Shown one piece after another: positions 5,586 to 48,100 of a stretch of 64,000 nt of DNA; positions within the stretch are counted from its first letter, which is position 1, and each line of letters opens with the position of its first letter. The stretch is taken from assembly GCA_947627575.1 (NCBI GenBank), contig CANQWN010000002.1:124001-188000 (forward strand), written 5' to 3'. Origin of the DNA: an uncultured Clostridia bacterium (GTDB lineage Bacteria > Bacillota > Clostridia > Christensenellales > Borkfalkiaceae). A program made the translations under genes and the position numbers. The notes under the pieces are model-generated. The model had not been told where the DNA came from and made no database searches. It saw only the letters and a list, made by a program, of their open reading frames with translations.

Positions 5586-6128
5586 TTATTCGAACTGGTT
5601 GGCGAGAATGGTCGCCGAAAGCTGGGCGAGTTTGCAAGCCCCCGCCTCTATCTTTGCGCCCTGTTCGGTTGAAACAAGCGCAACCGCGCCCAGACAGTCG
5701 CCGCCGCTGACTATGGGCACAATTATCTGCGCAGTGACGTTTTCTACGCCCTGAACTATCGGAATTACGTCGCCGCCTTCCGCAAGATTGGCGACGTAGC
5801 TTTTGCGTTCGCGCAGAACCTTATCCATTTTTTCGGAAAGCGTTTTGCCGCCGAATTCGCGCTGTCCTTTGCCGGAAGCGTGCAAAACCCCGTCCGTATC
5901 GCAAATTACGGCTACGTAACCCGACAGATCGGAAAGCGATTTCGCCGTGCCTTCGGTAAATTTTTCAAGCGAGGCTATCGGCGAATATTTTTTAAGCATA
6001 AGTTCGTCCCTGTCGGTGAAAATTTCGAGCGGGTCGCCCGATTTAAGGCGCAATGTGGAACGAATCTCTTTGGGGATAACTACCCTTCCCAACTCGTCTA
6101 TTCGCCTTACAATTCCCGTTGCTTTCAT
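5586..6128 (-). CDS. spoVT: SpoVT, stage V sporulation transcription regulator
   Basis: DNA-binding regulator of SigG-dependent genes in the forespore. The 180-residue protein has an N-terminal AbrB/SpoVT swapped-hairpin domain (MKATGIVRRIDELGRVVIPKEIR) and a C-terminal GAF-like domain (about 55-178). A good AAGGAG ribosome site precedes the ATG. It heads a spoVT-flippase-yabN operon, the same order as in B. subtilis. Confidence 0.95.
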   Translation of the reverse strand: MKATGIVRRIDELGRVVIPKEIRSTLRLKSGDPLEIFTDRDELMLKKYSPIASLEKFTEGTAKSLSDLSGYVAVICDTDGVLHASGKGQREFGGKTLSEKMDKVLRERKSYVANLAEGGDVIPIVQGVENVTAQIIVPIVSGGDCLGAVALVSTEQGAKIEAGACKLAQLSATILANQFE

Positions 6129-6164
6129 ATATTCTCCTTAACGATTTGTTACAAATCTTAAAAA

Positions 6165-6194
6165 AAGTATGTGACAGGCGGAAAAACTTATACC
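6165..6194 (-). promoter_or_regulatory. Candidate SigG-type promoter of spoVT
   Basis: Minus strand: GGTATA at 6189-6194, a 17-bp spacer, then CATACTT at 6165-6171. This resembles forespore SigG promoters (roughly GnATA and CATnnTA). spoVT is a SigG gene in B. subtilis. The -10 lacks the final A, so this is only a candidate. Confidence 0.4.
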
Positions 6195-6293
6195 AAAGCG
6201 GCAAAAACAAACGATTGTTGCGCGTAAATACGGTTAAACCGCTATAATCACCGCTCTAATAACGGATATTTTGCAGGCTGATTAAACAAAAAT

Positions 6294-6312
6294 CCACCCG
6301 CACAGCGGGTGG
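6294..6312. repeat. Perfect 8-bp hairpin at the end of the IS remnant
   Basis: CCACCCGC-ACA-GCGGGTGG forms a short perfect hairpin, followed on the plus strand by a T-rich run. IS200/IS605-type elements carry subterminal hairpins instead of terminal inverted repeats, and this one lies on the 3' side of the decayed tnpA. It may mark the element end or act as a terminator. Confidence 0.45.
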
Positions 6313-6431
6313 TATTTCATTTTTTGATAAATAAAGGCATCGCAATGCTCGCACGGACAAAGCCCTAATCATTACCGGCAGCGCACAAATGCGTCGGGGA
6401 ATCGGTCTGCCAGCCATGCGTTTGTTACTTG

Positions 6432-6831
6432 CTACCCTTGAAAGGGTCGTTCGGGATAAAACACACTCATTTGGTCTGCTTCTTTATCTTGCTTTAACTG
6501 GTTTGCTATGTACTCTTTTATTGCAGCTGTGTTCTTCTCCTACTGTGTCCATATAATATCCCTTGCACCAAAATTCGCGGTAGCGGTAGGCAAATTTCAT
6601 ATTGCCCCACTTTTGGTATATCATAAGACTGCTCTTGCCTTTCAAATATCCCATAAACCCCGCTACGCTCATTTTGGGCGGTATGCTTACCAACATATGT
6701 ATATGGTCCGGACAGATTTCCCCTTCCAACACCTCTTCTCCTTTCCATTGGCATAGCGTTATTAATATTTCCCGTATCTCTAACCGTTTTTCTTCAAAAA
6801 ATACTTTTCGTCTGTACTTGAGGACAAATAC
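6432..6831 (-). pseudogene. Decayed IS200/IS605-family TnpA (Y1 HUH transposase)
   Basis: Reading the minus strand across two frames restores most of a TnpA: VFVLKYRRKVFFEEKR, then CPDHIHMLVSIPPK with the HUH motif, MGYLKGKSSLMIYQKW, and EFWCKGYYMDTVG with the catalytic tyrosine region. Near 6535 a frameshift moves the C-terminus (AAIKEYIANQLKQDKEADQ) into another frame, and the first 15-20 residues are out of frame or missing. It is therefore inactive. It sits at the left edge of the accessory island, between spoVT and the pPIWI-RE operon. Confidence 0.85.
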
Positions 6832-6864
6832 TTATCTTAACCATAAAAATTAACGAGTTTAATC

Positions 6865-9381
6865 TTACGGGAAATCAATATATTCCTTAATAGTATTTAA
6901 GTAATGCAAAGGTAAAGGTAAGTTCGTAACGGAAGTATACTGAGGTGAAAGATATCTTAACTGATTTAAGTAGTTAATCGTTTCAAAAGAAGCATCGTTT
7001 TCACATAAACTTAGCGGGAAGTATTCCAGCAACTTTTTTCCACGGTAAGATTTTTCAGAATTTGAAAAGCTGTATTCTTTATTTCCGTCTTTGTATGTGC
7101 TATCATTTCTTTTTTCAATAACACTTGCATAATATACCCCTTTATATTTATAAATTCCATCTGCTTCGCCAGTAGTTTTTGTTCCGTTAGTAAGATAATA
7201 ATTTGGAATCTCATCGTTATCCCTTATTCTTATTATCCTGAGTTTGGAGTTATTAAGATTAAATTGAACAGAATATTTTTTATTTCCTATATCAAAATTG
7301 ACAGGTCTATACTCGCTTAAAAAAGAATACGTACTTATTTTTTTATTCGAAATACCTGGCCATAACTCGCTTCTTACAAAGCCATCGCCGCTCACAATTA
7401 AAATTGCATCCCTATAGCGATAATAATTTTCGAAACCCTTGATTTTTTGCTCAATATATCTCCTTGATGCATCATAACATAGTGCATCAAAATCTTTTTT
7501 CATCGATAATTTACATAGTTCCGAGCAGGCTCTATAATAAATTGTGGGAAGCCCGTTATTTATTACAGGGCACTCAACCGTAATTAATCTATCAATTATA
7601 TCATACTTTACCAACATAGGTACAACTCGTACTATTTCATCCGTTATGGTTTTAATTCTGGAATGTGCGCCTATCGCCAAAACGGGATAATTTAAAAATT
7701 TATCCAACCCTTTTGCTCGGTTTGTATATCCGAATTGCCGAAGCAGGTCACATATTGCGGCAAAAATTTTATACGGTAACCCTTTAATTTCTTTATAGTC
7801 ATTTTTATTTATGGGATTTATAAATTGAGTAACACGATTGGTTAATGCAAATCCACAGCGCAACAAATCTTTTGCGTCTTTAAGATCGCAATTTGAATTT
7901 ATTTTTTTATCGCTTTGAATTTTTGGCAGAATTATAATACTACCTATCATTAAATTTTTAGGTGCTTGCCCTATCATATCACTGATTTGTCTAACCCTAT
8001 CTATTCTTTTAGATATATTTCTGTAATCTTGTATAGGCATTGGATCGGCATAGCCCTTCAATGGAAGCCTTTGAATTTTTATTTCAAATTCTTCTGTACC
8101 TTTACCAATTATAGTATTTATAACGTCTTCGATTTGTTGTGCCAAATCATTATCTTCACTAAATGAACAAATCTCTATTATTGCACCCGAATAACCAGTT
8201 TTAGACAAGCACTCACAAATATCATTCCCGTTATCTTTGCTTGCTTTAAGCTGAATAGGATTTAATCTTGCAACTCTTGTTTTAACCTTATCTATCGGGT
8301 CAATTTTTAATACGAATTCTTTAACTAATTCATAAATTGAATTATAAAATACGGCTTTATCAAGCGCACTTATACCCGTCCCGATTTTAGATTCGCCAGC
8401 ATAACTATTTTCTGTCGAACATGAACAAAAAATTTGTGGGTTACTTTTGATTTCGTCATTGTATGCTTCTAATTCATTCAAAACTTCTTCAGCTTTTGGT
8501 AAACCCTTGGGATAAGCAAAATCATAACAGTTTTCATCCGACTCTCGCCATTTTACTTTGCGCATAACGGAATCATATTCCATAGAGATTCTATAATAGA
8601 TAGGTTCCTCGCTATGTTTAACAAAGGCAGTCATACTGTTTTTCAAAAATTTGTTAGATCTGTTCGAAGAGTTTTTGAATATTCTCCTGCTGCAATTCAA
8701 AAGAAGTATTGGTGACGACACCCCACTTCCCGGTATTGTTTGCAAACAAAGCGAGAATACGTAAGCATATAAATCATTCTTATAACCCCTTATAACTTGC
8801 GACATTAATTCATTACGTCCCGAATAATTCAACACTAACTTTGTATTATCGTAAATAATAGTTTTTCCTACTAAACTTTCCATTAATTTAAGGCAAAACC
8901 CGTTGTAGGCATATTGACTAGCAATCTTCCCGCTTTCGTCAATAATATGTATATATTCAGTATTAATATGCTTTAAAAGTTCTTTCGGATTTATTAAATT
9001 TATAAATTTTGAAAGCGCTTCTTGCACGCCGTTATTTTTTTTACTGCTATAACATGCTTGTGCGGCAGCCTTAATATTAATACAGATATCTTCGCAAACG
9101 GTTTGATTTATCTCATTCAAGCAGACTAACCATTTTGAATCATCGCTGTTTTTACGCATACCGTTGATTTCGATTAATCCATGAACCCAATTTAAGCAAA
9201 TTTGGCTGAGCTTGTTGCACAATGGCAAATTATAATTTTCATAATCATACTTGGGATTTACCGCTATTGCCAACTCCTTTAGACTTTCTTTCCATTCTAT
9301 CGGAAATCCAACAGTGTGAATTTTAATCGTTAAAGCCTTCGGAATAAAAGCCATCATTTGAAGTTTCTTCTGCTGGTTCAT
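6865..9381 (-). CDS. PIWI-like protein of the pPIWI-RE class
   Basis: An 838-residue protein without obvious catalytic DEDX residues. I assign it to the prokaryotic PIWI proteins of the 'RE' class because its C-terminal end (RYLSPQYTSVTNLPLPLHYLNTIKEY, residues about 809-834) matches the closing helix of PIWI/RNase H-like domains, the segment LIVSGDGFVRSELWPG (661-676) looks like an RNase H core strand, and RIIRIRDNDEIP (715-726) supplies an Arg/Glu pair of the kind that names the class. It is translated third in the operon after a nuclease and a DinG-type helicase, the set reported for pPIWI-RE modules. The start has an AAAGGAG site and overlaps the helicase gene by 59 nt. Predicted role: nucleic-acid-guided or R-loop-recognising component of defence against plasmids or phage. 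This is inferred, not shown. Confidence 0.75.
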   Translation of the reverse strand: MNQQKKLQMMAFIPKALTIKIHTVGFPIEWKESLKELAIAVNPKYDYENYNLPLCNKLSQICLNWVHGLIEINGMRKNSDDSKWLVCLNEINQTVCEDICINIKAAAQACYSSKKNNGVQEALSKFINLINPKELLKHINTEYIHIIDESGKIASQYAYNGFCLKLMESLVGKTIIYDNTKLVLNYSGRNELMSQVIRGYKNDLYAYVFSLCLQTIPGSGVSSPILLLNCSRRIFKNSSNRSNKFLKNSMTAFVKHSEEPIYYRISMEYDSVMRKVKWRESDENCYDFAYPKGLPKAEEVLNELEAYNDEIKSNPQIFCSCSTENSYAGESKIGTGISALDKAVFYNSIYELVKEFVLKIDPIDKVKTRVARLNPIQLKASKDNGNDICECLSKTGYSGAIIEICSFSEDNDLAQQIEDVINTIIGKGTEEFEIKIQRLPLKGYADPMPIQDYRNISKRIDRVRQISDMIGQAPKNLMIGSIIILPKIQSDKKINSNCDLKDAKDLLRCGFALTNRVTQFINPINKNDYKEIKGLPYKIFAAICDLLRQFGYTNRAKGLDKFLNYPVLAIGAHSRIKTITDEIVRVVPMLVKYDIIDRLITVECPVINNGLPTIYYRACSELCKLSMKKDFDALCYDASRRYIEQKIKGFENYYRYRDAILIVSGDGFVRSELWPGISNKKISTYSFLSEYRPVNFDIGNKKYSVQFNLNNSKLRIIRIRDNDEIPNYYLTNGTKTTGEADGIYKYKGVYYASVIEKRNDSTYKDGNKEYSFSNSEKSYRGKKLLEYFPLSLCENDASFETINYLNQLRYLSPQYTSVTNLPLPLHYLNTIKEYIDFP

Positions 9382-12300
9382 AATTTACATTCTCCTTTAA
9401 TGCTTTATAAAATGTTTCGTATAATGCTTTTGCCACATATTCATCTGTTTTTATCAAATTTTCTAAATAATCGCAAATTTCTTTCAAAATATCAAAAGAG
9501 CCTTCACCTCTTCCACCATTGAATGCCCCGTCGGCAAAATATATCCTTGGAGGTTCTTCAATTTTGGATATATCGCTTACGCGGGCGGATCTTCCATAAA
9601 TTTGATCCAGCATAATAAACACAGTTGCGACAACATCTTTTTTTCCTGCATCTGATAAATAATTTAAACTGTGTTTCCCACTATCTTTCTGCATTAAATC
9701 CCAAAATTTTCCCGCCTCATTTTTTATTTCATCGGAAAACGATCCCCAATCGTCAACCTTTTTATCACAAAACCGCTTAGAAATATATCCGTTCAATTTA
9801 CCAACTCTCAAAGATATATCGTCAGGAACAGACATAGGTCTTACTAAAAAGAATATACTCCTTATTGCCGAATTCGCATTTTTATCAAGTATGTTGTATC
9901 CTCTACATATAACCGATGCGGGCGCAATGAGAATCTTCTCCTCGGCCTTATCAAAATAAATAAGTTCATTTTTTCGTAACATACAATCTTCACGAGCTTC
10001 ATCATCACGAATCAGCACAGCACATTGATGTTTGCTTTTGATTTCAGCAAGGAACTTTTTAGTGTGACACCAAGTTTCTCTTGCTTCATCATAGCTATTG
10101 ACAATAAACAATATTTTGCCCGATTTACTTAATTCTGTCTCTATATCCTGACGTATTTCATAAAGCAATTGAAATATCCGTTTTGAGCGTCCATCTTTAC
10201 TTCCGCCTGATATAACAGTAGTTGCACCGCATGTACGAATTATTGATTTGCTTAAATATTCCGTTGTTTCTTCTGAAGATTGAATTATATAATTCACAGG
10301 AATATTAATGTGATATTGTAAAGACCCCGGGGCATAACTTGATCCGGAAAGTAAAATAGCGTGAGGCCCTAAAGGATTACCCTTTTCATCGACTTGCAAC
10401 CAAGGTAAAGATAGCATTAAGTATCTACCGAATGCATATTGCCTATAGACTTTTAATTTCTCATCCGATTTAGAATACATCATACCAAATATATTACCCA
10501 TTGGAGCTGATGGCAAAAATTTTTGTTGAGTAACAAATCTTGCCTGTAAAAAATCAGATATATTATTATTTCTAAGAACTTCTCTATCAACCGATTTTGC
10601 GGCATTGTCTATTCTATGTACAAGCCTATCAAAATAAATTACTTTTAATAGTAATTTCACATGCCGGAAATCTTGTTCATTGACTTTAATCTTATAGTTT
10701 AAAAATAATCTATTAAGTCTTGCATCAATATGACTATCTTCTCTACAGGAATCATCTACAATTTCAAGTAATTGATTAACTAATCCATCTTTATCCAAAG
10801 AATCCTCATTTACATTAATGCATAACCTTAATGCCTCTTCTAATTTTTTATCAATCTTATCGCAATGCATTCTTTCAATTAAAGTGAGAGCAGAAAACGT
10901 AGATGTAACCAAATTTCTCCAAACACCATTCTCTGCCTTCACCAATTCATCTATGTCATATGAAATTGCGTCGTAAACAGTTATAGCATCACGAGTAAGA
11001 TTGAAAAATCTTCTTTCGTTCCTATCAATGTCAACTTCAGAATGCCTCTTTCTCATATCAGCCGCACTGGCATCTGCATGTGAAGTTATAAAATCATTAA
11101 ATGCGGTGTTGGGTGCAAAAAAATCGTCCAATGTATTTTGAATTCTATCACACTCATCAAATAGCGCTACATCAAAATTATTGATTACTTCCTCTAAAAA
11201 AAGACGATGGCTTTTACCAATAAATGAAGCCGCCAAGCCTGCTACCGTAGTAACCACAACGGATGATTTCTCGGCTTCACGAAGCATCGCTGTAGCGGGA
11301 CATATATCAAAAAAAGCACATCGCTGTTTTCCTTTTTGGTCCTTATCACACGAGTGTAAATTATAGCAGGGTCTTTCACTATATTCCCACGCATCTTTGT
11401 TTTCATCATTCAGTCCATTAAGAATGCAGGGCGCTGACAAATATCTTGCAATATCTCTATCAATATATTTTTCCCCTTTTTTAAGTAGAGAAGAAGAATA
11501 TCTCTCTTGATTGGATTTACCAATCAAAGGAGATACTTTCAATGAAAGCTCTTTAAAATATTTGTAATAATCAATAACTTCATTAATTGAATTTAAAACA
11601 ATTACTACCCTATATCCTTTTTCAGCCAGATAAAAGCTTATTACTTTTAATAAAGTACTTTTACCCGAACCTACCATTCCTACAATGTTTACTACATCTT
11701 CTATGCTTAGGAGATCATTTTGACTTTTTGCATTTACCAGCCTGTTTCTTTTTAAAACATCATAGCAATAGTCGTCGGCATTTATATCTTTCATCTTTAA
11801 TGCAAATTTTAATAACTCTTCATATCTAATTTCAATTTTTTCCCTTTTACCTTTAATACTTTTTACTTCTTGCAAATCATTTTTAATTAAGCAATTGATC
11901 TTATCAGGCATAGGCATATCGACAGTAATAGGGTGCTTATCTTTACTATAGAATTTATATCTACCGGCTTTAGCCGCAGACATATTGTTTTGTGTTTTTC
12001 CTTTATAATAAATATAATTTAAATAATGTTGCTCTCTATCCGGTATAGGAATATCCTTATCGGTTTTAATTAAAACATTGTTCTCTACATTATAAAGCCT
12101 GATATTGTTGTATTGCTTGTCCATATACAATTCAAAATCTTTTTCCCATTGCATTTTTGAGGCATAAACAAGATACTTCATCCTTAACTGTTGCAACAAA
12201 AAAAGCTGTTCATCCTTTATACTGTGATTTATTATTTGATATCCTCTTAATAGCACATATGCTTTTGATGGATTTAATTTGGGTGAGACTTTAAGCAGAA

Positions 12301-12397
12301 TACACAAAATATTTTCAATACTTAAAAAACCCCTCAATTTGTCAAAATCATTAAAATAGTTCTCTAAACCTTTTTGTAGTAATTTCAAGTCAGCCAT
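9323..12397 (-). CDS. DinG/XPD-type superfamily 2 helicase of the pPIWI-RE module
   Basis: A 1024-residue helicase. Visible motifs: Walker A GMVGSGKST (240-248); a cysteine cluster C324, C344, C350, C360, C366 between motifs I and II, as expected for the iron-sulphur domain of the DinG/XPD group; motif II FDECDR (413-418) in place of DEAH; a motif III-like LLSGSS (682-687); a motif V-like CRGYNI (831-836); and motif VI YGRSAR (934-939). Residues 1 to about 230 are family-specific. It overlaps the nuclease gene by 8 nt upstream and the PIWI-like gene downstream, so the three are one operon. Likely job: unwinding duplex or R-loop DNA for its partners. Confidence 0.8.
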   Translation of the reverse strand: MADLKLLQKGLENYFNDFDKLRGFLSIENILCILLKVSPKLNPSKAYVLLRGYQIINHSIKDEQLFLLQQLRMKYLVYASKMQWEKDFELYMDKQYNNIRLYNVENNVLIKTDKDIPIPDREQHYLNYIYYKGKTQNNMSAAKAGRYKFYSKDKHPITVDMPMPDKINCLIKNDLQEVKSIKGKREKIEIRYEELLKFALKMKDINADDYCYDVLKRNRLVNAKSQNDLLSIEDVVNIVGMVGSGKSTLLKVISFYLAEKGYRVVIVLNSINEVIDYYKYFKELSLKVSPLIGKSNQERYSSSLLKKGEKYIDRDIARYLSAPCILNGLNDENKDAWEYSERPCYNLHSCDKDQKGKQRCAFFDICPATAMLREAEKSSVVVTTVAGLAASFIGKSHRLFLEEVINNFDVALFDECDRIQNTLDDFFAPNTAFNDFITSHADASAADMRKRHSEVDIDRNERRFFNLTRDAITVYDAISYDIDELVKAENGVWRNLVTSTFSALTLIERMHCDKIDKKLEEALRLCINVNEDSLDKDGLVNQLLEIVDDSCREDSHIDARLNRLFLNYKIKVNEQDFRHVKLLLKVIYFDRLVHRIDNAAKSVDREVLRNNNISDFLQARFVTQQKFLPSAPMGNIFGMMYSKSDEKLKVYRQYAFGRYLMLSLPWLQVDEKGNPLGPHAILLSGSSYAPGSLQYHINIPVNYIIQSSEETTEYLSKSIIRTCGATTVISGGSKDGRSKRIFQLLYEIRQDIETELSKSGKILFIVNSYDEARETWCHTKKFLAEIKSKHQCAVLIRDDEAREDCMLRKNELIYFDKAEEKILIAPASVICRGYNILDKNANSAIRSIFFLVRPMSVPDDISLRVGKLNGYISKRFCDKKVDDWGSFSDEIKNEAGKFWDLMQKDSGKHSLNYLSDAGKKDVVATVFIMLDQIYGRSARVSDISKIEEPPRIYFADGAFNGGRGEGSFDILKEICDYLENLIKTDEYVAKALYETFYKALKENVNYEPAEETSNDGFYSEGFND

Positions 12398-13511
12398 TAT
12401 TCAGTTCCTTTTTTATCATTTTTTTTAGCATGTTCATAGAAATACAGCGGAAATTATTTTTTGTAATTACACTGTTGCAAATTTTAAGATAAGCATTGTT
12501 TTTCTTTATAATTTTATCGGGAATGACATAAAAGCCCTTATTTATATTTGCATTATAAAATTGATTATCATTTTTTATTTTATCTCTTAATATATAGGGA
12601 TTAACAACAGTTTTTACATCAATTCCCCAGCAAGCCCCATTGGCAAACATAACTTTAATATCATAGCGATCCATCTCAGGCCATAATTCGCAATTTATTT
12701 TAAGCTGCTTACAAAAATCTTCTATCTCAAGTTCTGCTTTACCTGGATAACTTATGTATCTTGCTACCCCATGCTTTAGCCTCAAATCAAACTCATCGCC
12801 TACTTTACTTAAATTCTTTTTATCAAACTTTTTACCTTCCACACAGTCAAAATTGCAACATTGGGGTTGATACCCTTTAAATGAAATGGTCCATCCGCAG
12901 TTAGGACATCTATACATCTCTTCAGGAATATTTTCATACGCAAATTCAAATATGTCTTTAATATATTGGTCGTTGTTGCAATTTATTAAGAAATTATTTC
13001 TTTTCCTATTTGTTAATAAAGGATTCTCAATTAATAATCGACGAACTGCTACATAATTTTCCTGTGATAACTTTTCTCTCATCAAGTTATAAACTTTATG
13101 CTCGTCAATAGCCGATAAATCATTTTCGGTCGCATCAAGATAGTCTAAGCATTCACCGGTTAGTCCATAACTTTTTTCATTTTTTATTAAATAAATGAGT
13201 GGTTCCATTTCCCAAAACGCTTCACTCTGTAACTCTGCAATAGCTTCCTCATCCCATTTACTAAACCATTCTCTTACGGGCAACGTAAAAATTTTACAAA
13301 TCATCTCTGTTTCATTTAATGTAGCCAAATACTCTTTTAACTCATCGCCTGTTTGGGTTACATATTGTACCGCCAAAGCACAATACATGTTTATTCCCTG
13401 CCGTAACAACAATCCTGTTCTATATTGCTCCGGCTCATCATTTGAAAGCTTTTCCTTAAGCCCGAAAGCAATATGAGCAAACATTTTTTCAAATTTTGTA
13501 TCTTGCCTCAT
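12390..13511 (-). CDS. Zinc-ribbon/PD-(D/E)XK nuclease-like protein of the pPIWI-RE module
   Basis: First gene of the operon, 373 residues. An alpha-helical N-terminal half is followed by a zinc ribbon (CPNCG at 202-206, with C218, C219 and C223) and a restriction-endonuclease-like core: an acidic residue near E260/E262, D284 in YDIKV, then D298 and K300 in GIDVKT, the D-x13-D-x-K pattern of PD-(D/E)XK enzymes. The ATG has an AGGAG site 8 nt upstream. Nuclease activity is inferred. In the published module description a REase-fold protein accompanies the helicase and PIWI protein, which matches. Confidence 0.72.
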   Translation of the reverse strand: MRQDTKFEKMFAHIAFGLKEKLSNDEPEQYRTGLLLRQGINMYCALAVQYVTQTGDELKEYLATLNETEMICKIFTLPVREWFSKWDEEAIAELQSEAFWEMEPLIYLIKNEKSYGLTGECLDYLDATENDLSAIDEHKVYNLMREKLSQENYVAVRRLLIENPLLTNRKRNNFLINCNNDQYIKDIFEFAYENIPEEMYRCPNCGWTISFKGYQPQCCNFDCVEGKKFDKKNLSKVGDEFDLRLKHGVARYISYPGKAELEIEDFCKQLKINCELWPEMDRYDIKVMFANGACWGIDVKTVVNPYILRDKIKNDNQFYNANINKGFYVIPDKIIKKNNAYLKICNSVITKNNFRCISMNMLKKMIKKELNNG

Positions 13512-13529
13512 TCGTTTTTCTCCTAAAAA

Positions 13530-13561
13530 AATCCGTCCTTCAAAACACTGAAGGACGGATT
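13530..13561 (-). terminator. Intrinsic terminator directly before the pPIWI-RE ribosome site
   Basis: On the minus strand a perfect 13-bp stem (AATCCGTCCTTCA and complement, 6-nt loop) ends in a run of seven T. The run leads straight into the AGGAG ribosome site (13520-13524) of the nuclease gene. It therefore lies inside the 5' leader of the operon, after the promoter, and can act as an attenuator. Confidence 0.75.
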
Positions 13562-13676
13562 ATCATTAAACTTTGTGAATTCAAAGTACTAATCTCATCT
13601 TTAAGCAAGTTAAAGTAACCCTACAAAATGGTTAACTTACAAAATTACCTTAACTTTTATTGTGTTTTGTCTTGGA
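13562..13676 (-). ncRNA. Structured 5' leader of the pPIWI-RE operon
   Basis: The transcript expected from the promoter at 13684-13712 has about 115 nt before the terminator hairpin. A 12-bp stem can form between 13645-13656 and 13607-13618 (one G-U pair), and a 6-bp stem between 13570-13575 and 13582-13587. I do not recognise it as a known riboswitch or T-box, and no obvious antiterminator partner for the terminator arm is visible. Confidence 0.4.
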
Positions 13677-13683
13677 CAATTAC

Positions 13684-13712
13684 ATACTAACATACCAAAA
13701 ATTATTTGTCAA
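13684..13712 (-). promoter_or_regulatory. SigA-type promoter of the pPIWI-RE operon
   Basis: TTGACA (13707-13712), 17-bp spacer, TAGTAT (13684-13689) on the minus strand. The predicted start point is about 165 nt upstream of the nuclease ATG. The stretch 13713-13985 further upstream is AT-rich, and I see no gene or RNA in it. Confidence 0.65.
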
Positions 13713-13985
13713 GCTTTTTAATAAAATAAAAAAACTTTTTGAAACTTCTGTGCCGTACACGCGTCAAATACAATGATACCGTTCCATAATACGAAGAAAA
13801 GTAGGCGTTATTACTGAACCCCGAGTCTTTAACTTCATAATTAGTATTGTTCCATTAAATATTATAAATATAATTATCGACACAAAACTTTGCCTTATAT
13901 TAAATTTTAGCAATATTTATTAAATAAAAACCGTAGCTTATCCCATACTGAAGTTTTGATTGGTCGCTGTAAAAAATATTGTAAT

Positions 13986-15317
13986 TTACATAGAGTTGAT
14001 TGTTGGACTATAATTTTCTTTTTCTGCTTTTTTTAACTCTCGCTTACGGAAGAAAAGTTGTTCTTCTATAACAGAAACAATTAAATGCACTACCATACCA
14101 AACCCAAACATTAAAATAATAACGTCCATAGTGAAGTTAATGGCTTTAGTTAAATATAAAATAAAGAAAATGCCGTAATACACAAGGTTTATTATCAGCG
14201 AATTGATTGCATTGTATATCGTATGCCCCGTTCCGACAAAGTAGTTGTCTATAATGGAACATCCAGCATAAGCAATATAGAACGGAGCCAGTTTTATGGT
14301 AATTAAGAAAATCTCGTGCGCATTTTCAAGCCCTTCGGCATAACGGTAAAACGGAGTCCATAACGGAATGGTAATCGCCCACAATAAAACTACGCAAGCC
14401 GCAATAAAATAGTAATTGAATTGCTTTAAGGCAAGATAGCCGTCTTTGCAGTCGTGCCGTATAACCTCGCTTAGAGCAGTAATCGGAATAAGCAACCATC
14501 CCCATATAAAGTTATTTGCTATCCAATAATTGCCCTGTTCGGCTACCATATTTACCATTTTGCCTATCATTACGGCATAAATTAAATTATCGACAAACTG
14601 TTGTACCCCTGAAAATACGCCTACTTTACCCCATTCCTTTAAAGTCTGCAAATCACTCTTATGATACCAAGCCGGTCTAATAAGTTTTTGGAAATACAAT
14701 ACTAAAAATCCTGCCACGGCAAGCAAAGCGTTTACTATAATATTTGAAGCCGCTATTCCATATACACCTATCGACGGAATAAGTAAAAAATCGACAATGA
14801 CAGACAATACTGTTTGCACTGCCAAAAATATGTACACGTTTTTGTCTTTTCCGACTACGACGAAAACTACGTTAAAGAAGCTCGGCAAAATCCCCACCAT
14901 AAAGGCTATGGTTTCAAGTTGCAAATAATGATTTGTTACGGAAAGATCGACTTCAGCAGGATTCATCGCGGAAACCAACACAGAGCCGTAAATCAAAACA
15001 CCGACCGAAAATAATATGTATAGAGCAAAAGCGATTACGCCAACCTTAAAGGCATGTTTTGCAAAGTTTTCTTCATCGTGTTTCAATAATTTATTTAAAA
15101 CCGAATAAAGCGGAATAATTAAAAATGCTCGAAGAGTTTCGTCAATTAAATCAAACCACTCCATCTGCCCTATGACGTCAAATACGCCGCTTTCACTGTT
15201 AGACGAAATAATAAAAGTTCTCACCGTTTGATATATCGCCGGGATGAGCGCAAGAACGCAAAGCGACGTAAACAAACGCCAATTAAAATTTTTTAAATTT
15301 TTAAACTTTTCTTTCAT
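13986..15317 (-). CDS. MATE-type multidrug/toxin efflux family transporter
   Basis: A 443-residue membrane protein with about 12 hydrophobic helices and the two-halved arrangement of the MATE group (MOP superfamily). Short basic loops and a charged C-terminal tail (RKRELKKAEKENYS) are cytoplasmic features. I start at the ATG at 15315-15317, with AAGGA seven nt upstream; a TTG two codons earlier overlaps the ribosome site region. AT-rich and foreign-looking like the rest of the island. Substrate unknown; a defence or toxin-export link is only suggested by location. Confidence 0.7.
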   Translation of the reverse strand: MKEKFKNLKNFNWRLFTSLCVLALIPAIYQTVRTFIISSNSESGVFDVIGQMEWFDLIDETLRAFLIIPLYSVLNKLLKHDEENFAKHAFKVGVIAFALYILFSVGVLIYGSVLVSAMNPAEVDLSVTNHYLQLETIAFMVGILPSFFNVVFVVVGKDKNVYIFLAVQTVLSVIVDFLLIPSIGVYGIAASNIIVNALLAVAGFLVLYFQKLIRPAWYHKSDLQTLKEWGKVGVFSGVQQFVDNLIYAVMIGKMVNMVAEQGNYWIANNFIWGWLLIPITALSEVIRHDCKDGYLALKQFNYYFIAACVVLLWAITIPLWTPFYRYAEGLENAHEIFLITIKLAPFYIAYAGCSIIDNYFVGTGHTIYNAINSLIINLVYYGIFFILYLTKAINFTMDVIILMFGFGMVVHLIVSVIEEQLFFRKRELKKAEKENYSPTINSM

Positions 15318-15413
15318 ATTCAAATCCTTCTTTTGTTGGAAATTTCTGAAAAATATTCAGCGCCCTATTTTTTTGTCGTTTTACACCTTGCAAATTGCAA
15401 AGGCAACGACGGA

Positions 15414-16166
15414 TTACAAACCACCTATTTCGTTCAATTTGAAAAGCAGAACCTGCTTATAAAAACTATCCGGTTCGGCGGCAAGCCACTTAAACGCCCT
15501 TGCAAAATCAACCGTGAAACCTTTGCCGAAATATTCGTACATTTCCCTGTGCGAGCCGGAAAAAGGCCTTGCGACGACGCGCTTGATATTTTCCGCAATT
15601 GGCAAATCGCGGTTTACCGAAGGGTTGCAATTCAACAAACTTTTGCCGTTATCGAAAATGGGCGCGGGCATATAGCTTCCGTCCTCGTTCATAATTATGC
15701 CGAGGTTATGAAAGTGCCTGTCCTCGTTTAATACGATGTAGTCAAGCGTAAACACTTTTTTAAAGTATTCTGTCAAATCAAGCCCCACCGTTTTTTCGCA
15801 AAAACTCAATACGTATGCAACTTTTGCGCCTATCCCATTAAATTCTTTTATCTTTTCGTACAGCGGAATACCTTCAACGTTGCCGTGCAGACGTTCAAGC
15901 GTGACAAAGGACTGCGTGGGCGATAAAAAACTTTTACTTCTGCAACCGTACTTTCCGTTGATTTTACCCCTTTCGTAGACGACGTAATCTTTGGGGTTTA
16001 AAGACGAAAATGTCAAAAGCTCCGACACAAGGTACTCAACCTCACCTTCGCAACCTTCGTTGTCCTCCTTATACCAATACCCGTCCTTGAAAAATTTTAG
16101 CTGGGTGCCGTCGCTGGTGCCCTCTGTATCTACGAGAAAATCTTCGGTAATTTTTACGTCAAACAT
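15414..16166 (-). CDS. HipA-like kinase, C-terminal catalytic domain only
   Basis: A 250-residue protein matching the kinase lobe of HipA toxins, which phosphorylate aminoacyl-tRNA synthetases. It has a loop GTSDGTQLKFF near the N-terminus, the catalytic-loop motif LNEDRHFHNLG and the metal-binding motif PIFDNG. It is much shorter than classical HipA (about 440 residues) and lacks the N-subdomain, like the small-kinase (HipT-type) systems. The ATG at 16164-16166 has GAGGAGG upstream and overlaps the HTH gene by 8 nt. Whether it is a toxin is not shown. Confidence 0.75.
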   Translation of the reverse strand: MFDVKITEDFLVDTEGTSDGTQLKFFKDGYWYKEDNEGCEGEVEYLVSELLTFSSLNPKDYVVYERGKINGKYGCRSKSFLSPTQSFVTLERLHGNVEGIPLYEKIKEFNGIGAKVAYVLSFCEKTVGLDLTEYFKKVFTLDYIVLNEDRHFHNLGIIMNEDGSYMPAPIFDNGKSLLNCNPSVNRDLPIAENIKRVVARPFSGSHREMYEYFGKGFTVDFARAFKWLAAEPDSFYKQVLLFKLNEIGGL

Positions 16167-16716
16167 TCCGCAACCTCCTCGGCGCAACATCCTCCCATGT
16201 CAAACTTTCGCCGTTGAACCTGAACCACAAAAAATCGTTATAGGACACGCCGTGGGTCTTTTTGACGATTGCAAGCGGGTCGTAATAGGGAATTTCGAGC
16301 TTTTTAAGGTAGTTGCCGATATTGCGGCAATCGCGCTGCCAACAGCGGGTTTCAAGTATATTCGAGAGTTTGAAAACGTCCATTTCGGTATCGCGGAAAA
16401 TTTGTTTGACGGGGTGCGAAGTAAACCTTTGCACCTTAGCCTTGTTCCCCTTAACCGTGACGTATGATACAAGTTCATCGCGCCAAAAGCATAAAATTTC
16501 AAGCCCTTCCCACCTGTTTTGCGGTTGTTGCGGCGCAAAATTTAATTGCATCCCAAGCGCGCTTGCCAATTTTTGCAGTGTAGACATATTTGGCGAGACT
16601 ATCCCCGCCTCTATCCGCCCGACGGTTGACTGCGGCAAATTGCACCTTTCGGCAAGCTCTCTCTGCGACATTTTAAGTTGTTTTCTCTTCTTTGAAATTT
16701 CCGCAACAAATTCCAT
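16159..16716 (-). CDS. XRE-family HTH regulator, probable HipB-like antitoxin with extra domain
   Basis: 185 residues. An N-terminal XRE helix-turn-helix (KMSQRELAERCNLPQSTVGR and following helix) is joined to a C-terminal domain of about 110 residues that I cannot name; it may substitute for the missing HipA N-subdomain. I start at the ATG at 16714-16716, which has GAGGTG six nt upstream. It is first in a two-gene operon with the HipA-like kinase and probably binds the palindrome in its own promoter. Confidence 0.75.
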   Translation of the reverse strand: MEFVAEISKKRKQLKMSQRELAERCNLPQSTVGRIEAGIVSPNMSTLQKLASALGMQLNFAPQQPQNRWEGLEILCFWRDELVSYVTVKGNKAKVQRFTSHPVKQIFRDTEMDVFKLSNILETRCWQRDCRNIGNYLKKLEIPYYDPLAIVKKTHGVSYNDFLWFRFNGESLTWEDVAPRRLRNV

Positions 16717-16734
16717 TGAATTCACCTCAATCAT

Positions 16735-42140: not shown

Positions 42141-45100
42141 TCAGAAGTAAATTGTGCAAGCCATATCCTGTTTTGCGACGTTGGAAGCTATTTCTATTAT
42201 CCAATCGCCGTAAACATCGGAGAAGTATCTGCCGTCCCTTAAAGTGAGGTTGGCGGAAGGGTTAAGCACCCAACCTTCGGTATCGAAGGTGACGCCGTGC
42301 GATGAATCAATGAATGTTCTTTCTTCGTTATCATTGCCCGGGCTAAAAACGCCGCCTTTCCTCTTCCAACCGACAAATCTGTTCATCTGATAATCCGCCT
42401 TACCGGCTTCACCCACTTCAAACACAAGGTTGTTCCACCAGCAACGCGAAATTTTAACCGTTTGCCCTTCAAGTACGGTCAACTTATGGGTTACCGTGCC
42501 GACGTTGAGATATTTGTTGGGTGTATCAGCATTTTTGCCGGGCGCGTCTATTATACCTGTGTCGGAAACCGAATATCTGAGGTTTGTATCACTACCCGAG
42601 AAGGTGAACGACGCGGTGTACTGCATTCTGCCGACGAACAAGGTGTTATCGGCGGAAATTTGCACGGCTACAGTGGAAGAAACTTCGGTTGTATACGCTT
42701 CGTCCGCATACCACTTGTAGAAGGTGTAGCCATCGTTTACTGAAACGGGTAAGGTATTGCCGGAAGTTGCCACTGAAACGGACAGTTGGCTGTGGTCCTT
42801 TACCCATACGGCGTAGTACGTGGCTTCCGCCTGTCCCTTGACGGCGGTAAATTCGCCGAAGGCGAGACTGCCGTCCTTTTCCTGCGCCCAACCCGCGAAG
42901 GTGTAACCTGCGGCTGTGGGCGCTTTAAGCGCAAGATTGTTTGCGACGTTGGTAAGGTGAACTTTATCGCCCGCCTCGTAATGTTCGCCCTCGTAATCGA
43001 AAGCGATATCGCTGTTTACATAAATGTTATCAACGGTGTTAAGCTGCCATTTTGCCGTAAGCGAAACTGCGTTTGCAGGCATTTGGAAAGTTACGGACAA
43101 GGTATTTTCAACCGTTATGCCGTCCGCCTGCCAGCCCTCGAAGGTGTACGATTGTTCCGCGCCGTTGGTTGCCGTTACGGTTACCGTGGCGCCCTTGGCA
43201 ATCACAATGTCGCCGCCGTACGTCGTCTGTTCCCCTTCTACGGTGTAGCTTACGGGGCAATCCGTAATAGGCGAGGAATATGCAAATTTATACATACACT
43301 TATCGTCGCCGTTCTGGTTTATCGTTACTTTTATGCTTGTATAGCCGTATAAGGCAGTTGTAACGGGCTTTTCGTCGGGAAGACTTACTATTTCGACAGA
43401 AATATCGTAACCGTTGATATAGTTGCCCTCTTCATAGGTTTTGGCGTTGAGTACCGCGGTAATTGCGGAAACGATGTCCTCTTTGAGGGCGCTTACCTTA
43501 TCGCCCGTAACCATTCCGTCGGTAAGTATGCCGTTGAGAATGGAAGCGTCGCCAAGACTGTGGTCGCCCTCAATTTCGGCGAATTGCACAAGTCCCCAAG
43601 GATTGCCGTTTGCCCTTGTACAGGTACTGTTTACGGTATACTCGTAATGATCTTTGCCGTTAATTGAAGTGCCGGTACCGTCCGTACAGTTGTGCCCTAT
43701 ATAGCGGTATTTGGCGTTATACTTCGATCCCATGTTGTTGAATACCGACCATTCGGGTATATAACTTTCCATTATACCGCCATTTTCGTTTATGACGTTA
43801 TAGTAGACGTTGAGGTTGGTTGAATTCCCATCCTCGTTTTCACCCATGCAGCCGTAGAAGGCATAGTTGCCGTCGCTGCCGGTGCTTAATGTACCGAGCA
43901 AAGTTACTTTTTCTGCGGTGAATACTACCGACTGCATACCGCGGTTATCGAGGAATGCAAGCGAACCTACTTCGGTTATGTTGGAAGGAACAACTATGTT
44001 CTTTATTGAAGACGCGGCTTGCTTTGACGCGTTGGCAAAAGCCCTTTCGGCTATCTTTGTAACCTTGAAACCGTTTATCTCGTTTTCAAGCACAAGCCTG
44101 TTGCCGCCCTCTTCCAACTTCTTCGTATAGCCCAACTGCAACATCTGTTCCGCGTCGAAGCCAACTACCGTGAAGTAACTATCGGTATAGAGGTGTGTGG
44201 ACTCGTTCATAATGGAAGTCAACTTATAATTTACGCCGTTTACGGTGGTTGTTTCGTGTACGTAATTGCCGAATACGGATTTTGCAACGCCGTCCGCAAC
44301 GTTATTATCCTTTACATTGGCTGAATTGCCTACGGGGTTGGAAAGCGTGCCGTCCTCCGCCCTATCGTTATACCAGCCGAGGAAGGTGTAGCCGGGAACG
44401 CTGTATTCGGGCAAATAGTCGCTATAAGCGAACGCGCCTTCGATATAATCAAGTCCGTTGCCGAGGGTGTAATCTTCCACGTTGATATAGAAGCGGATGG
44501 TTGTTACGGGAACTACTTTCGCCCAGAATTCCTTGTCGCCGTCCATGGTAACTTTTGTCAAGTCTTTGTAGTTTATGCCGTCGCAAGGTTCTCCATTGGC
44601 GTTATTATGCACGCTGCCGTCGCACAAATGGTCGGTGAATACATACTTTTGGGTATGCTGTTCGTCCGCCCAGACGGGGAACAGAACGTCGCGCATAAAT
44701 ACCGTGGAACCGTAAGGCAACTGATCCTCGTACACGATGGTATCCTGCATACCGTTGCCGTAGTAACCGTGAATTTTTAAGGTTACCTTTTCGAGTATGG
44801 GCGACGCGTGGTAGGAATTATCTTCCGAGTAGTACGCGCCGAATACGTTGGTTCTGTGTTCGGTATCTATCGACGCGTCTGCATAGTAATCGAAATTGAT
44901 TGCCCTGCCGTGGTCTGCCGCTTCCTGAATGGCGAGTTTGAGATAGTTGGGACCTGCAAGTCCGCTTCTGTCTACCGCTTCGCCATCAACCGCGCGGGTG
45001 TAGTAAGGGAACGATTCAAGTGCTTCGGTTACAAGTTTGTATTCGCCGTTTGTATCCTTATAATAATACGTATCGTTTTCAAATACGTAGTAAGTATTTT

Positions 45101-48100
45101 CGGCGTTATATTCCAGCCCATACAGCTCGTAATTGCCGTTTGCAGTCTTGGTGTAGTAATTTACGCCGGGAACAAATTCGGTTATTTCAACCTGTGTGAA
45201 CAATTCCGAAATGCTCGGGTCATATACTTCCGCAAAGTTGAGGAGACTGCCGCCGAACGTTTCGTACTGCCCTTCGAGATACTTTGAAAGGTCTGCGGTT
45301 ATCGTAATGTCGGCAGGACCCGCCGTGAGGGCGGCAGAGGCTTTAAGCCCGCAAATGCGGTAATCGCCGTATTCGTCCTTGTCGCGCATTATCGCCGCAT
45401 AAAGTTTGGTTATCGCGCTTGTCAGCCCGGAGCCGTTTACGTCGAACAGGTAGTAGCTTGCGTCTTCAGCCGTCAAGCCCAACTCGTTTACGGCGGCGCC
45501 GTTCACTTCGCCGTAAGAATACTGCTTATCGCCGAGGTTGAACTGATAGCCGTTGAGATAGCGGGCAAGATCAAATTCGTTGCTGTTCTTGCTTACGCCG
45601 AACGTTTCGTACAGCTTATAATCGGTGCGCGGCGTGGTAAGCCCGCTTCCTATATTGATATTGCCGCCTACGGCGTCTATAATGTATCCCCACAACGTGC
45701 TGTTGGTGCCGAGAAGCCATTGCAAAGGCGAATCGGTTTTGCTTAACATATTGTCGAGGAAGTAATCCATAGTCATTACGCGGAACCTGCGGTTTGCAGA
45801 CGCTTCAAGGTCTTTGCCGAGGGTGAGATAGCCCTTGGAATAGCTTATGCCTACGGTATCCTGTTGAGTTATATCAAATATTTCGCTTACGTTGCTTAAA
45901 TCTGCTATAGCGGTGAAGTAGAAATCGCCGTCGCCGTCTATACCTATCGTAAAGTTGGTGAGATTTAAGGGAATATCCTTGTTTATAACGGGCAAGATAC
46001 TTATACCCAATATTGCTTTAAGGTCAAGCGCAAGGTGAACGTTCAACTGCCCGCTGAATGTATAGAGGGTATAGAAGTTGCCGCCGTCGTCGGTTATGGT
46101 GTTGGTTATATCCGAAATGAGGGGCGAAACAAAGCCTATATCCATATACTTTTCCGTCCAGCCTTCGGCGTATTCGCGGCGGGCGGCGGGAACAGCTTTT
46201 ATCGAAGCCCACTGCGTGCCCTCGCCCTCTTCCGCGGGTAAAGTTATCGCCGCGCGGATTTCATGGGATTGGGGATTGACGTTTACGCTTACGTCGCCTA
46301 TCCTGAACGAAGGCGCAACGCCCAACGCGGAAAGCAGATAATCGGTATGAACTATCGCAACGTTTTCGTGATAGCTGTCTCCGTCGTTTTCCAAATCTAC
46401 GCGCTTGAATTCAAACGCCTGTTTGAAGTCGAGCGAAAGCAAGTTGGAAAGCAGGTCGGTTATCGAAAGTTTGGTATCTTCGGTCATTTCGGGAACGGTT
46501 TCCACCGTCTGAACCGACGCGCCGCCGTTATTGCCCATAAAGCCGGAAATGAGGTCGGGAAGGGCGGGATTGGCGATAAGTTCAAGCAACTGCTGTACCG
46601 CGCTGTATACGTCGCCCTCGCCTGCCTTTACCTTTATGCCGCTTTCTTCGCCGTTTACTATTACCGTCTTGCCCACTTTTTCAAGCGAGATGTAAATAGT
46701 TCTGCCGCTGTAACGGGCGTTGGCTATAACTTCCACGCCCTTTATATTAAGGGTTATGTCGCCCTCTATTATCTTGCCGTCTACCACGCTGTCGCCGTCG
46801 AGAGCCTGCGTGTAATACAGCGTTGCGTCTACGGATATGCCCGCAAGTTGAGGTATTTCGCTGCTGTCGCCGTCTATCTTAACTTCCACGGTGTAGGTCT
46901 TGTCGCCGAGAATTTGCTTTACGGAAAGATCTTCTATTACGGCGAACAGATAGTTGTATACGCTTTTTACAAATATTTCTTCTGCGTAAGCCTTATTATA
47001 GAACTGATAAGGTTCGGTATCGAGAGTACCGTTAAGCGTTGCAACTTTATCCTCCGTGGCAACCTTAACTCCGCCGTCTTCGCTGTATGCGGGGGCGCGG
47101 ACGCCTACGTTAAGCGCAACAACCTTGTCTGCGCCGTTATTTACGTCAAGCTGAAGCCTGAGGTCGCCGTCAGTGGAAAGTTTGGCTTTGCCTATTTCGG
47201 CATAGTTTACTATAAGCGCAACCGCTTCGGCTTCGGGGTCGGCGGAATATTCCAGATTCATTGAAATATCGTCGGCAATGCCGAGTACGGTCTTTAATAT
47301 CTGCTGTAAGTTGAGTTGGGAAAGAATATCCGCAACGGTGCCGCCCGCGCCGCTTTCCGCGTCCGTGCCGGTGGTTATGGCAACCGCTTCGGCAGGGGTG
47401 GCGTTACCGCTCTTTACAGAACCCATAAGGCTTTCTATGGCGGCTTTAAGGGCATCTATGCCCGCCTTTGTATCGTCTATGTCCTCGCGGAAGAGGTTTA
47501 TGCCCAACTGATTTATGGCAACGCGGACGAGGGGCGCGTCTTTTTCCGCCGCTTCGTCATAGATAACCTTCAATGCAAGGCTATCCTTTTTGCTTTCGGT
47601 TGTGCCGTCCTGAATGTAGGCGGTCAAATCAAGCGCAACGCGGATTTTGCTTACGCCGTCTACCTTTTTCCACGTTACCTGCCCGTTGCCCGTCACCGCC
47701 ATGGTAACGCCGTCCGCGGTAACCTGCGCGTCTATGTCGAGAACTATGCTGTTGAGGTCGATAATGTCTATCGCCACGTCGTAAGCCTTGCCCAACATCC
47801 GCACGAGGTCGCCGAGGTCGAGATATTCGTCGATATTCACATCGCCTATTCCGCTGATTTCGGCGGCGTATGCGTTGAGGGTAAGCCAATCGTCTTTGCC
47901 TTCAACCTTTACGCTGCCCTTTATTTCGTGGGAAGCGGGGTTTATGGCTATCTTTGCGGTGCCGATATCGAAGCCGAGGTCTACGCCCAACGTATCAAGC
48001 ACGTAATCAACTGCAAACGTAGCGGTGTTTTCGCCGTCTACCTTGTGGAACTGAACAGCCTTTTCAAAATCGAGATTGAGAAGCCTTAACATTATCTCCG

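Follow-up and report, generated by a model that had tools for sequence, protein, structure and literature searches.

The pPIWI-RE proteins are distant bacterial cousins of Argonaute on which little experimental work exists. In DdmDE plasmid defence, an inactive Argonaute works together with a helicase-nuclease. The three-gene pPIWI-RE module was described by Burroughs, Iyer and Aravind in 2013, an article which reports that the RNase catalytic residues are kept in a subset of the proteins only and that R-loops are acted on by DinG helicases in the course of replication (PMC3702460), and the PsPIWI-RE protein of Pseudomonas stutzeri is described as binding and using RNA guides and as cutting DNA, with a requirement for D525 and D610 (PMC10991935). 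Two reviews mention PIWI-RE briefly and, in the passages covered, no leader (PMC10573157, PMC10515653), and PMC7641849 came up through wording such as 'Piwi-related' alone; the main text of PMC3702460 lacks the words leader, terminator and any form of attenuat-, and no mention of a leader on pPIWI-RE operons was found in the literature searched, which left preprints and most subscription journals outside and covered several of the papers in part. Here we analyse a stretch of 64,000 nucleotides from an uncultured Clostridia bacterium (contig CANQWN010000002.1, the whole stretch being called the window), which carries three genes within 6865–13712 that are, with near certainty, a pPIWI-RE module of the known kind. 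These genes are preceded by a conserved leader RNA that, judged from sequence comparison, appears to set this clade of pPIWI-RE operons apart as new. The best explanation, to which we assign a probability of about 0.58 as a whole, attenuator included, is a horizontally acquired pPIWI-RE module with expression set by a transcription attenuator.

The window's locus and the module of PMC3702460 are alike in the gene order nuclease-DinG-PIWI, the overlap of the genes, the X, MID, RNase H, Z and REase domains, and the patchy distribution. Three open reading frames (ORFs) on the minus strand encode the nuclease (12390–13511), the DinG-type helicase (9323–12397) and the PIWI protein (6865–9381), with overlaps of 8 nt between nuclease and helicase and 59 nt between helicase and PIWI; the G+C content (GC) is 29–35% per kb over 7001–14000, against about 50% in the surroundings. 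An earlier note on this DNA, made from the letters alone, had proposed three overlapping AT-rich genes forming a pPIWI-RE module. The former is confirmed by these ORFs and their composition, and the latter finds support in Pfam profiles and those of PADLOC, a collection of models for known as well as candidate systems, in predicted folds, and in the gene order of the relatives, which is nuclease-helicase-PIWI in their loci where all three genes were found.

The stretch of about 170 nt ahead of the first gene, not covered by the earlier note, comprises a series of elements on the minus strand. The single promoter proposed in that note stands, as a TTGACA-17-TAGTAT site with an extended −10 at 13712–13684, and to it must be added a hairpin that the note did not mention, a predicted intrinsic terminator of 14 bp with a T run (13561–13530, ΔG −21.5) between the promoter and the genes, the T run of which lies directly before the AGGAG ribosome-binding site of the first gene. 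From the predicted +1 to the end of the T run, the leader RNA measures 153 nt (13677–13525) and comprises (i) a 5′ element, GTCCAAGACAAAACAC, formed by the first transcribed bases (13677–13662) and able to pair with the terminator loop and 3′ arm (13548–13535), with a duplex energy of −15.1 kcal/mol that none of 300 shuffles equals; (ii) a central hairpin (13656–13607), the middle region having a z-score of −3.27; (iii) the segment GATGAGATT (13599–13591), a possible partner of the terminator 5′ arm in the alternative fold; and (iv) the terminator itself. The fold of 13506–13684 is more stable than all 200 shuffles (z −5.24). The 18-nt terminator core, with up to two mismatches, occurs at one place in its own genome, as does a reversed control. 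A consensus scan of 6100–14000 finds 39 promoter-like sites against 38.4 in shuffles, and 4 terminator-like sites against 4.2; since the scan alone stays at the shuffle level, the weight of promoter and terminator comes from their conservation in relatives.

A helicase-alignment search of a genome contig collection returned 37 loci, 11 of them cyanobacterial (L050–L060) and the remaining 26 mostly, to judge by their titles, with very few exceptions, from Clostridia, while a search of the collection with the single PIWI protein gave no match. The window and 21 clade loci with readable upstream DNA make up a set of 22 leaders, not all of them independent, the leaders of L030 and L033 being 98% identical; the leader of L036 is the same as that of L035 and was counted once, and L025 and L044 come without upstream DNA. 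Ahead of the nuclease gene, 21 of the 22 show the promoter, the 5′ element and a hairpin with a T run in succession, the counterpart in L043 being weak, with a terminator placed by eye where the automatic pick was another hairpin. The promoter matches 9–12 of 12 consensus positions in 21 leaders, the window's included, and 6 of 12 in L046. The 5′ element starts at the predicted +1, and 77–154 nt separate this start from the hairpin end in 21 leaders, L043 being longer; its sequence opens with GTnnnnGAnnnA, positions 1, 2, 7, 8 and 12 being invariant in all 22. The start of the longest ORF falls inside the leader in L032, L037, L038, L039, L043 and L048, and L032, L037, L039 and L048 have a later ATG after the terminator, behind a ribosome-binding site. 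The middle of the leader forms a hairpin of changing sequence in most cases (mean z −1.81 over the 22), L037 having 23 nt and no hairpin; RNAalifold on versions A and C, two of the sequence versions described below, predicts the terminator alone, the central hairpin sharing no sequence. As an observation apart, the tip of the central hairpin is 50–70% alike between L024 (4220–4375) and L027 (4220–4376), and the leader elsewhere 80–100%, as structural drift or a variable segment might produce. A leader peptide was considered and rejected, no start with five of six Shine-Dalgarno matches being present in the 22 leaders (L043 scanned in part). Rfam 15 returned no match up to an E-value (E) of 5 in 6100–14100, and in ten relatives' loci just three tRNAs at the gathering threshold.

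The 5′ element is complementary to the terminator loop and part of one arm in each of four main sequence versions. Version A (the window, L024, L026, L027 and L045) matches GTCC..AAACAC with GTGTTTT..GGAC; version B (L028, L029, L030, L033 and L035) matches CGAAAAATATCA with TGATATTTTTCG; version C (L031, L032, L034, L038, L039, L041, L042 and L048, with L037 as C2) matches GTACA.GAGA with TCTC.TGTAC; and version D (L040 and L046) matches ACACGAA with TTTCGTGT or similar. The leaders' own pairs average −12.7 kcal/mol, compared with −6.4 for 348 swaps between groups, and the identity is the sole one of 720 group permutations to reach the observed pairing sum. When the 5′ element is shuffled 300 times, at most eight shuffles reach the leader's own pairing in 18 of the 22 leaders. 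In version C, the base of the terminator shows paired changes at four pairs, and the top, on which the 5′ element depends for its pairing, hardly varies. Changes in version A leave the pairing intact for the most part (94% of cells, compared with 41–48% when slid), a column shuffle being uninformative here. The opening five bases of version B, GUACA, are kept though the loop pairing starts after them, and because this conservation seems to exceed the need for pairing, we infer, weakly, that a factor may read the 5′ end of the leader.

When the 5′ pairing is imposed, the terminator has no place in the resulting fold, and its 5′ arm, left free, can in version A pair with the upstream GATGnGATT motif, a third helix in which 90% of the cells in the five leaders are paired, without a double change. 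The folds thus computed give the leader the shape of an attenuator that would be off by default. Two traits expected of attenuators are found, namely a predicted intrinsic terminator between promoter and first gene, present in the sequence, and a computed terminator-excluding structure kept in the relatives, weak in L043, L034, L048 and L041. The leader resembles the class of terminator/antiterminator attenuators in its promoter, alternative pairing, intrinsic terminator and lack of a leader ORF with a good ribosome-binding site; it differs from known attenuators in that the extreme 5′ end of the RNA serves as the competing strand, that pairing starts in the terminator loop, and that Rfam holds no match. 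That conservation falls on the 5′ end and the terminator speaks against a small-molecule aptamer. On this comparison of sequences, we favour with moderate confidence a transcription attenuator.

Several results weigh against such a switch. The terminated fold is the more stable one in 21 of the 22 leaders, the difference upon forced 5′ pairing averaging +4.4 kcal/mol with a range of −3.1 (L040) to +9.9 (L048), all folds being computed without pseudoknots. The pairing is at the shuffle level in L043 (117 of 300 shuffles) and weak in L034 (40), L048 (20) and L041 (17); the 5′ end of L043, which represents version E, reaches −6.9 with the hairpin of its own leader, weaker than the −8.1 to −9.2 obtained with those of C, C2 and D. 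In a sliding control, another 20-nt stretch pairs as well as the 5′ element in 11 of the 22, some of these overlapping the 5′ element, and none does in the other 11. The arm engaged also varies, being the 3′ arm in A, the 5′ arm in C and D, and mainly the loop in B, and version A offers no compensatory double change, the covariation lying between the groups. Finally, in L028, L029 and L035 the 3′ arm offers possible partners for two to four of the GUACA bases, which weakens the argument for a factor at the 5′ end.

Full leaders of versions A and C, sought in genomes, turned up beside this operon and nowhere else. An automatic scan for promoter, hairpin and start in succession was positive for 21 of the 22 leader loci, one of the 14 pPIWI-RE loci outside the clade and 3 of 135 other ORFs; the lone non-clade positive, L023, was set aside, its hairpin coming immediately behind the stop codon of an ORF further upstream (8939–9139) and being explained as that ORF's terminator. 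Model R1, built on version A, matches the window leader at full length, but the window belongs to its training set; among 301 family genomes its full-length matches are confined to five, those of its own training sequences, the remaining 296 having none, and all five carry the three genes, the helicase being split in G046. R1 does not detect the C2 leader of G128, and a partial match in G293 (model positions 81–157) was dismissed as an ordinary terminator between unrelated genes. Model R2, trained on eight version-C leaders, finds full-length matches at L028, L029, L030, L033, L035, L036 and L037, all outside its training set (seven loci, six different leaders, E 0.003–0.037 in 570 kb). Version A, L040, L046 and L043 escape it, and the 14 non-clade loci give nothing. 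Two further R2 matches fall on leaders in the antisense direction (L048 at 0.029, L031 at 0.85) and count against the reading of the leader given here. Of 391 class genomes, two show the version-C pattern, G327 and G460, and these are the two carriers of the operon other than the window's genome. No solo copy of the leader was found in the 391 genomes (version C) or the 301 (version A), these being the versions searched in genomes. In viral contigs, pattern B and the version-A terminator gave no match, and a single pattern-C match was dismissed, lying inside an ORF without a leader-like layout. In the helicase tree, the 22 leader rows and two rows without upstream DNA stand opposite the 14 leaderless rows with 100/100 support, long branches limiting a finer reading. 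Within the window's group in this tree stands the helicase of L025 (Candidatus Scatousia; Bacteria incertae sedis at NCBI), 56% identical to the window's, possibly by transfer between distant hosts or by a binning error. Outside the clade, the cyanobacterial L050–L060 have no leader, most showing by eye a palindrome, AGTTACTAT...ATAGTAACT, that ends near the nuclease start codon and is perhaps an operator, and the distant clostridial L047 and L049 show, also by eye, a short inverted repeat near a −10-like box in place of the leader.

The distribution of the module itself is patchy. Matches to the PIWI protein were found in 9 of 301 family genomes, the window's included, three of them fragments; two of 391 class genomes carry a match besides the window's own, and the nuclease family occurs in 2 of 398 genomes of a phylum sample, one being the window's own. 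The source genome (1.59 Mb, 11 contigs, 97% complete) holds one match to the PIWI protein, which is the protein itself. The fragments lie at a contig end in G037, in G028 (L008) as 27 residues (70%) of the PIWI C-terminus, a possible trace of a lost module, and in G176 as a doubtful 89 residues. The helicase of L026 and the PIWI gene of L034 are each split into two ORFs, by decay or sequencing error. No DinG relatives were met in a phage collection and viral contigs, and plasmids gave 22 distant matches, below 25% identity and mostly cyanobacterial and proteobacterial.

The 9.3-kb stretch between spoVT and a HipA-like gene (6129–15413), comprising an IS200-like remnant, the pPIWI-RE module and a MATE transporter, is absent in the same-genus genome G268 (L079), where helix-turn-helix (HTH) and HipA-like genes stand directly beside spoVT with a gap of about 125 bp; among 29 fetched spoVT relatives, L079 is the one with these two genes beside spoVT. 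At the DNA level, L024 and L027 are 87% alike in the leader, with the last 62 nt identical, as selection on this part would leave them, 84% in the nuclease and 87% in the helicase; over the 619 nt before the leader, promoter included, the likeness is 44%, the two promoters themselves looking alike. Because the likeness stops before the leader, the leader travels with the genes. Horizontal acquisition of the module is part of the best explanation, under the single probability given above.

The three proteins are those expected of the family, the X, MID, RNaseH and REase profiles of pPIWI-RE all scoring above their cut-offs. The nuclease, of 373 residues, comprises a weak Y domain (PF18156, 19.7 bits against a cut-off of 26.7, 31 residues matched), a zinc ribbon and a PD-(D/E)xK REase domain (PF18154, 3.9e-24, 85.4 bits against 26.1; PADLOC PprRE, 1.8e-25). 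The zinc ribbon and D-x13-D-x-K core named in the earlier note are both present and conserved, D284-x13-D298-x-K300 and C202, C205 and C223 being invariant in the 29 rows of alignment A3 (the window and 28 loci). The structure model (predicted local distance difference test score 89.5) resembles nuclease-fold proteins, its N-terminal third being barely covered by the comparison, and the DdmDE structures 9bf1, 8u3k and 9ezy are among the entries listed; this comparison and that of the PIWI model were made with VIA-align. The helicase, of 1024 residues (PADLOC PprDinG, 2.7e-106), contains a Z domain (PF18155, 2.9e-13, 50.6 bits against 25) together with the GSGKST and DECD motifs and the five cysteines read from its sequence before, which lie between 324 and 366, four of them (C324, C344, C360 and C366) being invariant in the seven helicases of alignment A1. 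A Protein Data Bank (PDB) search by sequence with the PIWI protein and the nuclease gave no credible relative, the best E for PIWI being 0.25.

The PIWI protein, of 838 residues, comprises X, MID and RNase H-fold PIWI domains (PF13111, PF18157 and PF13032, with 67.4, 37.8 and 56.6 bits against cut-offs of 30.5, 26.6 and 25; PADLOC PprPIWI, 1.1e-58), and its AlphaFold2 model shows the Argonaute fold anticipated for it, resembling Thermus thermophilus Argonaute (5xow, 4n76) at 9% identity. Alignment A2 comprises the window and 29 loci and leaves out L033 (a near-copy), L034 (split gene), L035 and L044 (cut) and L053, L056 and L057 (spare cyanobacterial), L054 and L059 having no PIWI match. For the R...E motif previously noticed in the C-terminus, the candidate pair in these 30 rows is R715, kept in all, and E724, kept in 28, E786 being by alignment place a second candidate for the family glutamate; in the MID domain, D502, K504 and R508 are invariant in all 30. 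Judged by alignment and predicted strands, the slicer aspartates expected on the first and fourth core strands are lacking in the window's protein. The first position is G571, with Asp in L045 and L025 only, and the second is S664, with Asp in 8 and Glu in 5 of the 30 rows and D666 two residues further. PsPIWI-RE belongs to the same protein family, and the window's matching positions lack the usual aspartates that it needs (PMC10991935). With these aspartates replaced and the MID residues invariant, the PIWI protein would probably hold a guide or hybrid without cutting it, the cut likely falling to the nuclease subunit.

Under the attenuator explanation, RNA polymerase would start at the conserved G and make a leader of about 150 nt, the terminator before the first gene would fold by default, and most transcripts would stop there. 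Alternatively, the first ~16 nt would pair with the terminator loop, acting as a toehold, and then with one arm, the central hairpin bringing the 5′ element and the terminator together; the 5′ pairing would open the terminator and let the polymerase enter the genes. A factor at the 5′ end would set the choice, and the simplest guess is the operon's own PIWI complex. When free, the complex would mask the 5′ end and keep the operon off; when it is occupied by invader nucleic acid, the operon would turn on. Such self-control is a tentative idea, and it is likewise doubtful that the leader is a gene-encoded RNA partner whose 5′ end the complex holds in its MID pocket, the match between 5′ end and loop being a self-target that would report whether the complex is free or engaged. 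In defence, the MID/PIWI cleft of the Argonaute-fold protein would take up a guide or RNA-DNA hybrid, and the protein would, probably without cutting, bring in the DinG-type helicase and the PD-(D/E)xK nuclease, which would destroy the marked DNA; by analogy, this resembles DdmDE, where a non-cutting Argonaute-fold protein is likewise combined with helicase and nuclease. If the self-control model is true, the guide-binding pocket of a PIWI-family protein doubles as a sensor of its own operon and the leader becomes a candidate natural ligand of the pPIWI-RE protein. For a family so little studied at the bench, a conserved switch would give a concrete handle, the leader telling which RNA, which transcript end and which short pairing to examine.

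A competing account, which we consider unlikely, takes the leader as a small RNA devoted to the PIWI complex, which it would serve as guide, scaffold or inhibitor. The terminator would then yield an excess of RNA and little mRNA, the 5′ end in the MID pocket pairing back on the terminal hairpin to give a closed RNA. Type III toxin-antitoxin loci and retrons make RNA in excess with little mRNA read-through. In favour of this account speak the structure and terminator end of the RNA, its occurrence beside the operon alone in the genome searches (versions A and C), the 5′ end conserved from +1 onwards, the invariant MID residues described above, and the use of RNA guides by the P. stutzeri protein (PMC10991935). 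Compared with a CRISPR-like encoded guide, which would join a constant scaffold to a variable targeting segment or have copies apart from the protein genes, the leader shows a constant 5′ end and a variable middle. The 5′ end is nevertheless constant within versions, unlike a variable guide, and its sole known complement is the leader's own terminator; the middle is variable and without conserved sequence, no solo copies were met under the searches given above, and three-gene relatives outside the clade have no leader. It is quite unlikely that an attenuator is read in some other way, be it by an RNA-binding protein of the host, by a trans-acting RNA from a phage or plasmid, or through pausing of RNA polymerase. 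The structural evidence for a switch is neutral on the factor, and the balance here comes from the distribution: because the leader accompanies this operon alone in the genome searches (versions A and C) and persists in hosts from Lachnospiraceae to Oscillospiraceae, a factor travelling with the operon is favoured.

The attenuator itself would be dispensable if the terminator were a leaky brake only, the complementarity being either incidental or an inverted repeat that a repressor recognises at the DNA level. The weak pairing in L043, L034, L048 and L041 and the palindromes seen by eye before the first gene of non-clade pPIWI-RE loci fit this proposal, which we regard as very unlikely, given that the four main versions each match themselves and that the two elements sit at the predicted +1 and in the terminator loop. 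The role of the module in defence faces a separate alternative, service in DNA replication or repair. Loss of PIWI-RE in P. stutzeri leads to ciprofloxacin sensitivity and filamentous cells, a replication-stress phenotype that counts against a defence role (PMC10991935), and the action of DinG helicases on R-loops in replication points the same way (PMC3702460). The patchy occurrence of the module in family, class and phylum, its foreign GC and its insertion relative to G268 make this function improbable, and a horizontally acquired module under an attenuator is the explanation we retain.

Around the module, directly after the PIWI gene, an 82-residue remnant of an IS200/IS605-type transposase lies on the minus strand at 6484–6732, matching positions 44–110 of 121 of Y1_Tnp. 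Upstream of the module, at 15414–16734 on the same strand, stand the overlapping HTH and HipA-like genes (PADLOC PDC-M03A, 3.2e-12; HipA_C below cut-off). Further away, a 3190-residue ORF (42141–51713, minus strand) with Listeria-Bacteroides and InlB-type repeats near its C-terminus encodes a giant surface-type protein.

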